A DNA stretch of 64,000 nt from Rhodospirillaceae bacterium (GTDB lineage: Bacteria > Pseudomonadota > Alphaproteobacteria > CACIAM-22H2), in the NCBI GenBank assembly GCA_022843945.1, contig JALHMR010000016.1:1-64000 (forward strand), read 5' to 3'. The notes beneath the pieces were generated by a model. It was given only the letters and a program-made list of their open reading frames with translations, did not search any database and had not been told where the DNA came from. Below are positions 2,166 through 7,531 of this stretch, one piece after another. The stretch's first letter is position 1; each line of letters starts with the position of its first letter. The position numbers were made by a program, and so were the translations under genes.

Positions 2166-2253
2166 GGCTGCCAGCCGCGTTCGCCAGCCTGGCCGGGGCC
2201 GCTGAAAGTTAAGGACTTTTCCACAAGAGTCGGGTATATTGCGCCGCAATAGG

Positions 2254-2295
2254 GAACCGGGGCCGCCGAGAGCGCCCCGGTTCTTCTTTTATTTA
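2254..2295 (+). terminator. Strong hairpin with T-rich tail ahead of typA
   Basis: A perfect 10-bp stem (GAACCGGGGC at 2254-2263 with GCCCCGGTTC at 2274-2283) and a 10-nt loop are followed by a T-rich run at 2284-2294. It terminates the kinase transcript. A -10-like TATATT lies at 2235-2240, so it could also sit in the typA leader. Confidence 0.8.
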
Positions 2296-2328
2296 CCCAA
2301 TTCTCCCTTGTTTACAAAGTGTTACGCC

Positions 2329-4152
2329 ATGGACATCCGCAACATCGCGATCATTGCGCACGTCGATCACGGGAAAACCACCCTGGTTGACGCCCTGCTC
2401 AAGCAGTCGGGCTCGTTCCGCGCCAATCAGCAGGTGGCCGACTGCGCCATGGACTCCAACGACCTGGAGCGCGAGCGCGGCATCACCATCCTGGCCAAGT
2501 GCACCTCGGTCGAGTGGAGGGGTGTCAGGATCAACATCGTCGACACGCCGGGCCACGCCGATTTCGGCGGTGAGGTCGAGCGCATCCTGTCGATGGTCGA
2601 CGGCGTGGTCGTGCTGGTCGACGCGGCCGAAGGGCCGCTGCCCCAGACCAAGTTCGTCACCCAGAAGGCGCTGCGCCAGGGCCTCAAGCCGATCGTCGTG
2701 GTCAACAAGATCGACCGCGGCGACGCCCGCCCGCACGACGTCCACAACGCCATGTTCGACCTGTTCTCGGCGCTCGATGCGACCGAGGCGCAGCTCGATT
2801 TCCCGACCCTCTTCGCCTCGGGCCGCAACGGCTGGGCGGCGGAGAGCCTGGAAGCGCCGCGCGAGAATCTCGCCCCACTCTTCGATCTCATCCTCTCTTA
2901 CGTGCCCGCCCCCAAGCGCGACCTCGAGGCGCCGTTCTCGGTGCTGGTCACCACGCTCGAGTATGACTCCTATCTCGGCCGCATCCTCACGGGGCGCATC
3001 CATAGCGGCGTCGCCCGGGTCAACATGCCGGTGCGTGCTCTGGGCCGCGACGGCCAGGTCCTGGAAGAGGCGCGCCTCACCAAGCTGCTCGCCTTCCGCG
3101 GCCTCGAGCGCCTGCCCATCGAGCAGGCCGAGGCGGGCGACATCATCGCCATCGCCGGCCTGGGCAAGACCACGGTGGCCGACACCATCGCCGATCCCAC
3201 GGTGACCGCGCCGCTGCCCTCGACGCCGATCGATCCTCCGACATTGGCGATGACGTTCTCGGTCAACGATTCGCCGCTCGCCGGCCGCGAGGGCACCAAG
3301 GTCACCAGCCGCATGATCCGCGACCGCCTGCTCCGCGAGTCGGAAGGCAACGTCGCCATCCGCGTGCGCGAGACCGGCGACGCCTACGAAGTCGCCGGCC
3401 GCGGCGAGCTGCAGCTCGGTGTGCTGGTCGAGCAGATGCGCCGCGAGGGCTTCGAGCTGTCGATCAGCCGGCCGCGCGTCATCTACAAGACCGATCCGAC
3501 GACCGGCCAGCGGCTCGAGCCGATGGAAGAGGTGCAGGTCGACGTCGACGACGAGTTCACCGGCATCGTGGTCGAGAAGATCTCCAACCGCCGCGGCGAG
3601 CTCAGCGACATGCGCCCGTCGGGCGGCGGCAAGACCCGTGTCAGCTTCATCGCGCCGTCGCGCGGCCTGATCGGCTACCACGGCGAGTTCCTCACCGATA
3701 CGCGCGGCACCGGCCTGATGAACCGCGTGTTCCACGGCTACGCGCCCTACAAGGGCCCGATCGAGGGCCGGCACACCGGCGTGCTGATCTCCAACGCCTC
3801 GGGCATCTCCATCGCCTACGCGCTGTGGAACCTCGAGGATCGCGGCCCGATGATGATCCATCCCGGCGGTCCCGTGTATCCCGGCATGATCATCGGCGAG
3901 CACACGCGCGACAACGATCTCGACGTCAACCCGCTCAAGGGCAAGCAGCTCACCAACATCCGCACCACGTCGAAGGACGAGGCGGTGCGCCTGACCCCGC
4001 CCAAGATCCTCAGCCTCGAGCAGGCGATCGCCTACATCGCCGACGACGAGCTGGTCGAGGTGACGCCCAAGTCGATCCGCCTGCGCAAGAAGCTGCTCGA
4101 CCTCAACGACCGCAAGAAGGCCACGCGCCTGGCCGAGGCCGAAGCGGGCTGA
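2329..4152 (+). CDS. typA: Ribosome-associated GTPase TypA/BipA
   Basis: TypA is a translational GTPase of the EF-G/LepA class that binds 70S ribosomes and supports 50S assembly and growth under cold and other stress. The 607-residue product has the usual length. G1 is AHVDHGKTT (10-18), G3 is DTPGH (72-76) and G4 is NKID (126-129). EF-G-like domains III and V and the BipA-specific C-terminal domain follow. The ATG at 2329 is chosen because the family starts [18 protein letters not shown]; the upstream extension runs through the terminator hairpin. The last 56 codons plus stop recur as a near-exact copy at 7360-7531, so the gene end is the site of an insertion or duplication. Confidence 0.97.
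3981..4152 (+). repeat. 172-bp direct repeat, left copy (typA 3' end)
   Basis: This segment encodes the last 56 residues of TypA plus the stop. It matches 7360-7531 at 171 of 172 positions by direct reading. The single difference, C at 3996 against G at 7375, is a synonymous third-position change. The repeat ends exactly with the TGA codon: the next base is g here and c in the other copy. Confidence 0.97.
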
Positions 4153-4306
4153 GTCTCCGGCGGCACGTCTAGCCGCCGCGTCAGCCCGGCCGAGCGGCGC
4201 GCCTCACGGCTGCGCCCGCCTTGATAATGCAACCTATCCGGGCAATGATGTTCCGTGCCTAGACGGCTGCGCCGCCTCCGCCGCGGAGGGGTGCCGAGGG
4301 GGGGCC

Positions 4307-6001
4307 ATGGCTGCTGTGCGCAAAAGCTCATCAGGGGGCGCTGCCGCCCCTCACAAGCGCAAGCTCACCATCATTGCTGAGGATCCCGACGTTAAGGTCG
4401 GCGGCCGGATTTTGACCACCGAGGTTGAGATCCCGGCGGAGGAGCTGATTCCCGGTCCGCGCGGCTACCGGGTCAGCGTCGTCGACTACGATGCGACCAC
4501 GGATACGCTCTACAAGCCGGCCGAGCTCCCGGTCGTTGCCCACGGCAGCGACGAAGAGTCGTATTTCCTGAACGATCCCCGCTTCCATGCGCAGAACGTC
4601 TACGCGATCGTCATGCGCATCCTGGCGCGCTTCGAATTCGCCCTCGGCCGACGGGTGGCCTGGGGTTCGGACGGGCACCAGCTTCACGTCGCGCCGCACG
4701 CCTTTGCCGAGGCCAATGCGTTCTATTCGCGCGAGGATCGCGGCCTGTTCTTCGGCTACTTCACCGTCTCCCGGCCGGATGGGCCGGACAAGCCTGTCTT
4801 CACCTGCCTGTCGCACGACATCATCGCGCACGAGACGACGCATGCGATCCTCGACGGGTTGCGCCGTCGCTATCTCGAACCATCATCGCCCGATCAGGCC
4901 GCCTTCCACGAAGGGTTCGCCGATATCGTCGCCCTGCTATCGATGTTCTCCTTGCAGGACGTGGTGGGAGCATTGCTGGGCTCGGGCCCGGCGTCGCCTC
5001 TCATCCCGCAGCAGGACCTGGAGCGCGACAAGATCCGGCAGTCGGTGCTCTTCGGCCTGGCCAACCAGATGGGTTCGGAACTGTCACGGGTACGCGGCCA
5101 GGCGTTGCGCCGCTCGCTGGAGCTGACGCCGGGGAAGGCCCATCTGGACATGCCCGAGTTCCAGGAGCCCCACCGCCGGGGCGAGATCCTGGTGGCCGCA
5201 ATCATGAGCTCGTTCCTCGATATCTGGCTGGCGCGGCTGGAGCGCCTCGGCTTCCTCAAGGGGAGGGAAAAGGACCGCAGCCTGGTCGTCGAGGAAGGGG
5301 CCCGTGTGGCCGAGCATCTGCTGACCATGGCCATCCGCGCCATCGACTACAGCCCGCCGACGGACATCAACTTCTCCGACTTCCTGTCGGCGCTCCTCAC
5401 CGTGGACAAGGAGGTCGTGCCCGACGACACGAAGTACGGCTACCGCGGCACGCTGATCCGCAACTTCAAGGCATACGGGATCGAACCGGCCAGACAGGCC
5501 AATGACGACGGGACCTGGCGTCCTTCCGAGGGCACGTTCACCTACGCCCGGACACGCTACGACTCGCTGCTGCGCGACAAGGAGGAAGTGTTCCGCTTCA
5601 TCTGGGAGAACCGCGAGCAGCTGAAAATCGATGACGACGGCTACGTCGAGGTCGAGGCGATCCATCCCAGCATCCGGATCGGGCCCGACGGCTTCGTGCT
5701 GCGCGAGACGATCGCCCAATACGTTCAGATCATGACCCTGACGGTCGGCGAGCTGAAGGCAGAGCTCGGAATCGATCCGCCCGCGGACATGCCCGAGGAT
5801 CGCCGGGTCCGTATCTTTGGCGGCGGTGCCTTGATCTTCGACGACTATGGACAGCTCAAGTATCAGATTCGCAACCGCCTCGAAAGCAAGGAACGGCAAG
5901 ATGCCCGTCTGAAGTATCTCTGGGAAAACGGCTTCTTTGATCGACCTGCCGACGACCGGGCGCCCTTCGCGGCGCTGCATCTGGCGCGTGCGACAGGCTG
6001 A
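4307..6001 (+). CDS. Cytosolic thermolysin-like gluzincin metalloprotease
   Basis: This is a predicted zinc endopeptidase of 564 residues. The zinc motif is HETTH (175-179) within DIIAHETTHAILDGL, and the likely third ligand is Glu202 in HEGFADIVALL. NAFYSREDRGLFFGYF (137-152) matches the NAxY...FG strand that precedes the helix in M4/M36 peptidases. There is no signal peptide and no propeptide, unlike secreted thermolysins, so it should act in the cytoplasm and must be controlled another way. The C-terminal 250 residues match nothing I recognise. A purine run (GAGGGGGGG) lies just before the ATG. Eleven bases separate its stop from the MBL gene, implying one transcript. It sits inside the typA 3'-repeat cassette and is probably acquired; a role in phage or plasmid conflict is inference. 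Confidence 0.8.
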   Translation: MAAVRKSSSGGAAAPHKRKLTIIAEDPDVKVGGRILTTEVEIPAEELIPGPRGYRVSVVDYDATTDTLYKPAELPVVAHGSDEESYFLNDPRFHAQNVYAIVMRILARFEFALGRRVAWGSDGHQLHVAPHAFAEANAFYSREDRGLFFGYFTVSRPDGPDKPVFTCLSHDIIAHETTHAILDGLRRRYLEPSSPDQAAFHEGFADIVALLSMFSLQDVVGALLGSGPASPLIPQQDLERDKIRQSVLFGLANQMGSELSRVRGQALRRSLELTPGKAHLDMPEFQEPHRRGEILVAAIMSSFLDIWLARLERLGFLKGREKDRSLVVEEGARVAEHLLTMAIRAIDYSPPTDINFSDFLSALLTVDKEVVPDDTKYGYRGTLIRNFKAYGIEPARQANDDGTWRPSEGTFTYARTRYDSLLRDKEEVFRFIWENREQLKIDDDGYVEVEAIHPSIRIGPDGFVLRETIAQYVQIMTLTVGELKAELGIDPPADMPEDRRVRIFGGGALIFDDYGQLKYQIRNRLESKERQDARLKYLWENGFFDRPADDRAPFAALHLARATG

Positions 6002-6012
6002 GGAGAACGCGC

Positions 6013-7314
6013 ATGGCCACCTCTCCGCTGAGCGTCACCATCCGCAGCTACCAGGTCGGGTTCGGCGATTGTTTCCTGTTGAGCTTCCGCTATTCGGCAA
6101 GCGACGAGCGGCACGTGCTGATGGACTTCGGCTCCACGGGCCTGCCGGAGCACTTGCCCAAGACGCATATGCGCGACGTGGCGGAGCATATCCGCGAGCG
6201 GATCGGTAAAAACAACCGGCTGCACGCCGTGGTCGCGACCCATCGGCACAAGGATCACATCTCGGGTTTCGAGACCAAAGAGGATGGCAGCGGTCCCGGC
6301 GACATCATCCGGGCGTTGAAGCCTCTGGTCGTGGTCCAGCCCTGGACCGAGGATCCCAAGCTCAAGACCAACGCCACGGGGCCGGGCCGCCCGGCCCTGA
6401 CCGGCGAGCAGCGACATATTGCGATGCTCGCCTCCATGAATGACGTGGCCGAGTCCGCCCTGAGGGAGAGCGCGCAGCTCTATTTCGCCAAGGACGTGCA
6501 GGGACAGCTCGCCTTCCTGGGCGAGGACAACATCGCCAACCGCAGCGCGGTGAAAAACCTCATGGACATGGCGCCCAACGTCTATACGCATTGCGCTGGC
6601 GAATCCGGGCTGGAGCGAGACGACGTATTGCCGGGCGTGCGGGTCCACGTGCTGGGTCCACCGACCATCCAGCAAACCGATACGATCAAGAAGATGCGCA
6701 GCCGCGACGCGGATGAGTTCTGGCACCTCCAGGCGCGTGCCTTGCGGGACTTCGGCGCGTCCGGTGGCGGAGCGGCCGCGATCTTTCCGGAAGCCTATGT
6801 CCGGGCCCGCGGGTCGGGCTTTCCCATCGACGCCCGCTGGCTGATCTACCGGTCGCGCCGGCTGCGCGGCGAGCAGCTTCTGCAGATCGTGCGCATCCTC
6901 GATCAGCAGATGAACAACACGAGCCTCATTCTGCTGTTCGAGGTCGGCGACAAGCTGCTGCTGTTTCCCGGCGACGCCCAGCTCGAGAACTGGCAATACG
7001 CCCTCGGGCAGCAGCAATACAAAGACCTGCTGGCCCGCGTAAATCTTTATAAGGTCGGGCATCACGGCAGCCTCAATGCCACCCCGAAAACCCTTTGGCA
7101 GCTGTTCGACAACAAGTCGAAGGACAAGACGAACGACCGACGGCTCGTCTCCCTGATGTCGACGATGAAGGGGAAGCACGGCCACGAAGATCGCGAAACC
7201 GAAGTTCCCCGACGGCCCCTGGTCCAGGCGCTCAAGCGCGAGTCGTCGTTGCGTTCGACCCACGACTTCAAGGCCAAGGAACTTTATCGCGATACCGAAA
7301 TGGATTTCGGCTAG
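6013..7314 (+). CDS. ComEC/Rec2-type metallo-beta-lactamase-fold hydrolase
   Basis: This 433-residue soluble protein has an MBL fold of the ComEC/Rec2 kind. The strand motif [13 protein letters not shown] (13-25) matches the DVGQGD start of the family. The metal motif is HRHKDH (77-82, HxHxDH). A later metal-ligand segment is FPGDAQ (318-323), and KVGHHGS (347-353) is the typical C-terminal histidine signature. Such domains hydrolyse phosphodiesters or related esters with two metal ions. Unlike ComEC it has no membrane part and no DNA-uptake neighbours. About 90 residues (160-250) between the metal motifs look like a lineage-specific insert. It starts 11 nt after the protease stop, with GAGGA shortly upstream, so the two genes are probably co-translated parts of one system. 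Confidence 0.82.
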
Positions 7315-7359
7315 ATCCCTCATTCTCCCGGAAAAATCTGGCCTCGCCGCGCCGGCCCG

Positions 7360-7531
7360 GGCGGTGCGCCTGACGCCGCCCAAGATCCTCAGCCTCGAGC
7401 AGGCGATCGCCTACATCGCCGACGACGAGCTGGTCGAGGTGACGCCCAAGTCGATCCGCCTGCGCAAGAAGCTGCTCGACCTCAACGACCGCAAGAAGGC
7501 CACGCGCCTGGCCGAGGCCGAAGCGGGCTGA
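7360..7531 (+). repeat. 172-bp direct repeat, right copy (displaced typA 3' end)
   Basis: This is a second copy of the last 56 codons and stop of typA, 171/172 identical to 3981-4152. It has no start codon or upstream typA body and lies 45 bp after the MBL gene stop, so it is a gene fragment. It may be the original chromosomal 3' end displaced by the cassette. Confidence 0.95.

Follow-up and report, generated by a model that had tools for sequence, protein, structure and literature searches.

A co-evolving zinc protease and ComEC-type MBL hydrolase gene pair as a candidate protease-activated pro-nuclease module

The window, that is, the whole stretch of 64,000 nucleotides that was analysed, carries a gene for a zinc protease followed closely by a gene for an MBL hydrolase, and the question raised by this locus is whether the two form a conflict system in which the protease controls a toxic enzyme. 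An earlier note on this DNA had proposed such a pair at 4307-7314, with the genes 11 bp apart on a likely acquired cassette. Both reading frames were found to be intact at these positions (protease, 4307-6001, + strand, 564 aa; hydrolase, 6013-7314, + strand, 433 aa), with 11 nt between the stop of the first and the start of the second. The proposed acquisition was also borne out, and the insertion site is laid out as follows.

2239-4152: typA reading frame, a complete and intact gene
3981-4152, + strand: 3' end of typA, the first copy of a 172-nt direct repeat, which completes the intact typA (from repeat comparison)
4153-7359, + strand: inserted cassette, holding the two genes alone (from the flanking repeat and the gene order in relatives)
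7360-7531, + strand: repeat copy 2, a leftover typA 3' end on the right border of the insert

The direct repeats that bracket the insert run up to the typA stop codon and are 99% identical over 172 nt, with one mismatch. Two relatives, G400 and G419, have the uninterrupted order of typA and then an MFS gene, and the same MFS gene lies beyond the insert in the window, from about 8361. The cassette was inserted here recently, and the extra typA copy must have come from a very close strain or from the same genome, since nucleotide identity to typA in the nearest relatives is just 78-86%. Mis-assembly at the typA repeat is unlikely, though the genome is a draft. No integrase or recombinase was found in the cassette (4153-7359), and no comparable flanking gene-end repeat was present at any other locus compared. 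Elsewhere, at locus L085, short palindromic repeats of ~85 nt flank the protease-MBL pair (around 9900 and 13370) and could be REP-like elements.

The first gene of the cassette encodes a protease with the following features.

4307-6001, + strand: M36/M4-like zinc protease, 564 aa, without signal peptide or propeptide
4829-4843, + strand: HETTH zinc-binding motif, residues 175-179, with H175, E176 and H179 invariant
4910-4924, + strand: E202-G-F-A-D206, third zinc ligand and helix, invariant
5171-5173, + strand: H289, candidate transition-state histidine of the M4/M36 fold, invariant
5513-5911, + strand: extra C-terminal domain, about residues 403-535, with weak NTF2-like resemblance

The HETTH motif and Glu202 had been read from the letters, and both were recovered as near-invariant in the homologues, within the sequences H175-E-T-T-H179 and H201-E202-G-F-A-D206; the role of H289 we take to be that of the transition-state histidine from what is known of the M4/M36 families. 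When 48-59 homologues were aligned, the catalytic positions of both the protease and the MBL hydrolase were invariant or nearly so. A structure model of the protease (pLDDT 90, pTM 0.92) was compared with known enzymes by VIA-align, giving Z 26.4 over 312 residues with the M36 fungalysins and Z of about 19 with the M4 enzymes LasB and thermolysin; the HExxH and ExxxD catalytic set and the M36/M4 fold are both present. A Foldseek search with the same model gave no thermolysin match and weak NTF2-like matches. The model comparison placed an extra, weakly NTF2-like domain in about the last 160 residues. The enzyme was assigned as lacking signal and propeptide, as the earlier note had it, because its fold begins at residue 16-18, where mature secreted M36/M4 enzymes start, and none of 82 homologous pairs had a signal-peptide-like N terminus. 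Thus the protease shares its fold and catalytic residues with M36 fungalysins and M4 thermolysin, and differs from them in having no signal peptide, no propeptide, an additional C-terminal domain and no significant sequence match in Pfam or the PDB. At four other loci, the zinc protease beside the MBL gene carries a fused S8 subtilase domain at its N terminus (L022, 4717-7815; L097, 8222-11827; L156, 6273-9833; and L005).

The features of the second gene are given below.

6013-7314, + strand: ComEC-type MBL hydrolase, 433 aa, a candidate gated pro-nuclease
6241-6258, + strand: HRHKDH metal-binding motif, residues 77-82, invariant
6358-6426, + strand: candidate gating loop 1, residues about 116-138, of low pLDDT and an insertion relative to ComEC
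6673-6822, + strand: candidate gating loop 2, residues about 221-270, of low pLDDT, with W237 and F258 conserved
7051-7071, + strand: KVGHHGS motif, residues 347-353

The motifs H77-R-H79-K-D81-H82, G320-D321 and K347-V-G-H-H-G-S353 were all identified, and the closest structural match to the model of the hydrolase (pLDDT 85, pTM 0.86) was the nuclease domain of ComEC (Z 22.4, E 6.6e-8, 250 of 266 residues), in agreement with the ComEC-type assignment made before. Profile searches matched the Avs1a, 6A-MBL and ComEC models of NCBIfam, at scores far below the equivalog cut-offs, and the LmuA, PDC-M48B, RTasMBL and Avs1a models of PADLOC; the LmuA, RTasMBL and Avs1a models were matched by all 54 members of the MBL family. 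The window protein is therefore an MBL of the ComEC/Avs1a/LmuA kind with its metal site intact.

Relative to the ComEC nuclease domain, the model contains about 145 extra residues. The span from HxHxDH to HHGS, counted on the alignment, is 273 residues in the window protein against about 127 in ComEC (9ic4), and is 199-245 residues in other defence-type MBLs. A single insert at about 160-250 had been suggested for this protein, and this did not hold: the unusual parts are two loops, at about 116-138 and 221-270. The extra sequence forms two segments split by a conserved strand, a topology that is also seen in canu-like MBLs and in those linked to S8, M48 and patatin genes, and it includes the stretches modelled with low confidence, at about 118-140 and 225-265. 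By their topological position the two loops resemble the gating loops of MBL pro-nucleases and may cover the active site, and both are weakly conserved among homologues. A hydrophobic residue just past the cleaved bond is preferred by M4-type enzymes, and for this reason F258 in loop 2 may be guessed to be a cut site.

The association of the two genes was studied by a scan of 84,980 species, each represented by one genome, which returned at least 480 relatives of the protease. Among the best 80 of these, more than ten phyla were represented, including Pseudomonadota, Actinomycetota, Acidobacteriota, Planctomycetota, Verrucomicrobiota, Myxococcota, Chloroflexota, Gemmatimonadota, Nitrospinota and Desulfobacterota, together with a Bacteroidota MAG and an archaeal MAG. 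In 75 of these 80 loci the MBL gene lies directly downstream of the protease gene, and of the five exceptions, two run into the end of a contig. At L040, L041 and L083 the protease stands alone, its zinc site intact and no MBL gene close to it. The two genes overlap or are at most 4 nt apart in 65 of 85 pairs, a 4-nt overlap being the commonest arrangement, and the MBL family (E up to 1e-8) was detected in six of 398 Pseudomonadota genomes, the same six that gave strong protease matches. Tree distances of the two proteins were closely correlated (Mantel r 0.91, p 0.001, n 82), to which shared species history contributes. Co-occurrence across genomes, which the earlier note had proposed as a check, was thus clearly detected, and the view of an old, conserved, co-evolving and intracellular pair is well supported. 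The homologues are not mostly separate, secreted housekeeping genes, nor is the pair confined to a biosynthetic or nutrient-use context. A phage origin was also considered, and viral-contig scans with the protease and the MBL hydrolase gave weak matches and no clear pair.

Related MBL proteins have been shown to be pro-nucleases, in which a trypsin-like or caspase-like partner protein cleaves the loops (Tuck et al. 2025, PMC12799240). We consider it probable that the window pair is a metalloprotease-driven variant of such a protease-activated pro-nuclease module, acting inside the cell. The MBL hydrolase would be a ComEC-type DNase whose active site is blocked by two flexible loops, while the zinc protease, which has neither export signal nor propeptide, would stay silent until a signal of infection or damage arrives. 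Activation of the protease, in which its additional C-terminal domain or oligomerization might play a part, would lead it to cut the loops and so free the DNase, and degradation of DNA would cause the cell to die or stop growing before phage could spread. The claim that the protease controls a toxic enzyme fits the mechanism proven for the related pro-nucleases with trypsin or caspase partners (PMC12799240), and the cutting of the loops in the window protein is predicted by this likeness. Counted against a gated pro-nuclease are the lack of a sensor gene in the window cassette, the three protease loci without an MBL gene, the stable chromosomal context in Microbacterium and Sphingomonas and the weak conservation of the loops.

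The genes around plasmid copies of the pair suggest a role in defence. On plasmids, clear defence annotations were present in seven of eight windows around the pair and in one of eight control windows from the same plasmids (one-sided Fisher p 0.005, with defence keywords that were not chosen blind). These annotations comprised CBASS, SAVED, SIR2, DUF1837 with helicase, ThiF/multiubiquitin, restriction and nuclease-helicase sets, of which DUF1837 with helicase is the gene set of Hachiman (PMC12278908). On two rhizobial plasmids (L154, 6839-15184, and L155, 6839-15111), genes for a patatin, the protease and the MBL lie directly upstream of Hachiman-like DUF1837 and DEAD-box helicase genes, and the whole may be one joint system. 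Nearness to defence genes was seen for plasmid copies but not for five Microbacterium and three Sphingomonas loci, which keep their chromosomal context and have no defence neighbours. In genome G220 (L178, 6816-15477, contig C1), the protease gene, split by a frameshift, stands with MBL and patatin genes beside a convergent operon for a caspase, an unknown protein and an Avs1a-like MBL. The pair and patatin are about 1-2 kb from this canu-type caspase and Avs1a-like MBL locus, and two putative protease-nuclease systems are side by side.

Although the window cassette has no third gene, many other loci carry one in the same orientation, and its identity varies. It encodes a Tle1-like lipase (DUF2235) at 13 loci, a patatin at 10, an S8 subtilase at four (besides the N-terminal S8 fusions to the protease), an astacin-like protein at three and a tyrosinase at three, with single cases of a phospholipase D, a deaminase and a DyP-type peroxidase. 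VgrG, Hcp and PAAR, the type VI secretion context for Tle1-like lipases, were not annotated in any of the plasmid windows read. The description of the system as two-component thus fits the window cassette and is not strictly true of the family, because many loci add a third enzyme. A broader reading, possible but to be held tentatively, is that the fungalysin-like protease and the gated MBL form the centre of a widespread immune platform of its own. The metalloprotease would then turn on the DNase together with any exchangeable third enzyme that is present, for which the Tle1-like lipase, patatin, phospholipase D, subtilase, tyrosinase and peroxidase are candidates. With both switched on by one metalloprotease, DNA and membrane would be attacked together.

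It could instead be that the protease mainly activates the third enzyme (Tle1-like lipase, patatin, phospholipase D or subtilase), with the MBL as a regulator or second effector; a phospholipase would attack the membrane, and the window pair, on its own, would be a stripped-down version or would have its target encoded at another locus. This would account for the varied same-strand third genes and the S8 domains fused to the protease, and the host genome has a separate operon of patatin, S8 subtilase and defence-type MBL genes (L142, 5472-9947, - strand, G000, contig C40). However, the third gene is variable and often missing while the MBL gene is nearly always present and co-evolves with the protease gene, and such a role could supplement the gating of a nuclease instead of replacing it; we regard this explanation as unlikely. 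The host operon, of which a similar one occurs at L180, seems to be an equivalent of the window pair that uses a serine protease.

A pair with an everyday task in regulation or protein quality, and no part in conflict, would be in keeping with the conserved chromosomal context of the Microbacterium and Sphingomonas loci, with the ordinary neighbours at many others and with the position of the window cassette between typA and a transporter gene. This is quite improbable, as the pair is very patchy (six of 398 Pseudomonadota genomes), is absent from 60 relatives of the host, was inserted recently in the window and has plasmid copies that cluster with defence genes. Least probable of all is an MBL that is no DNase and acts with lipases on membrane lipids, as a phosphodiesterase or phosphorylcholine-esterase-like enzyme, for although the phosphorylcholine esterase Pce/CbpE was the second structural match (Z 18.9) and many third genes encode phospholipases, the ComEC nuclease domain was clearly better, the profile matches are to nuclease-type defence MBLs and many loci lack a lipase. 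The idea of a protease and MBL conflict system thus found support in a conserved, co-evolving, intracellular pair with conflict-type neighbourhoods, and in the form first proposed it stands in part, because the defence role comes from gene association, third enzymes occur, stable loci lack defence neighbours and the loops are two.

If the pair is a protease-activated pro-nuclease module, a third unrelated protease class, after trypsin and caspase, would have been recruited to activate this type of DNase, and proteolytic activation of a killer nuclease would count as a general principle of immunity. Because the two-gene form is small and self-contained, its trigger and cut sites are directly testable, and the assorted third genes supply candidates for effectors under protease control.

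Comparison with named systems sets the pair apart. The hydrolase scored 53.9 bits with the Avs1a equivalog (cut-off 420), and no trypsin and STAND gene was found in the cassette, as AVAST type 1 would have; the score with NF058524, the equivalog of the anti-phage 6A-MBL system, was 43 bits (cut-off 220). The name and MBL model of PDC-M48B in PADLOC suggest a link between an MBL and a metallopeptidase, and 52 of 54 MBLs matched one of its models. However, the window protease matched no PADLOC model at E up to 1, and the MBLs of true PDC-M48B systems form a separate clade with shorter inserts. No further literature on PDC-M48, 6A-MBL or a metalloprotease-MBL system was found. The main text of PMC12799240 refers to further MBLs that co-occur with proteases of "other diverse" families, leaves these unnamed and contains neither "metalloprotease" nor "thermolysin"; since these partners are assigned to its supplement, a clade of M36/M4-like proteases with MBLs may already be drawn there.

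With the trypsin-partnered MBLs of HamM/Hachiman, AVAST type 1 (Avs1a/Avs1b), Lamassu and DRT, for which that paper gives proven cut sites in HamM (I118 and I218) and tested sites in Avs1a (I134 and I234), the window pair shares adjacent, co-evolving protease and MBL genes and a ComEC-like MBL with two loop insertions and detectable homology. It differs in its protease, which has the M36/M4 fold with HExxH...ExxxD and is neither trypsin-like nor caspase-like; this zinc enzyme is encoded upstream of the MBL, alone and unfused to a sensor, unlike the sensor-fused proteases of AVAST, Hachiman and Lamassu, and no sensor gene (STAND, helicase or SMC) is present in the window cassette. The metal-binding motif is HxHxDH, in contrast to HxDxDH in the canu-like, S8-, patatin- and M48-linked MBLs compared. 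Canu (CanABC), as described in PMC12799240, shares with the window pair a free-standing protease gene upstream of an MBL that is gated or, in the window pair, predicted to be so, while the window pair has a different protease fold, no CanB-like gene and an MBL that belongs to a different clade.
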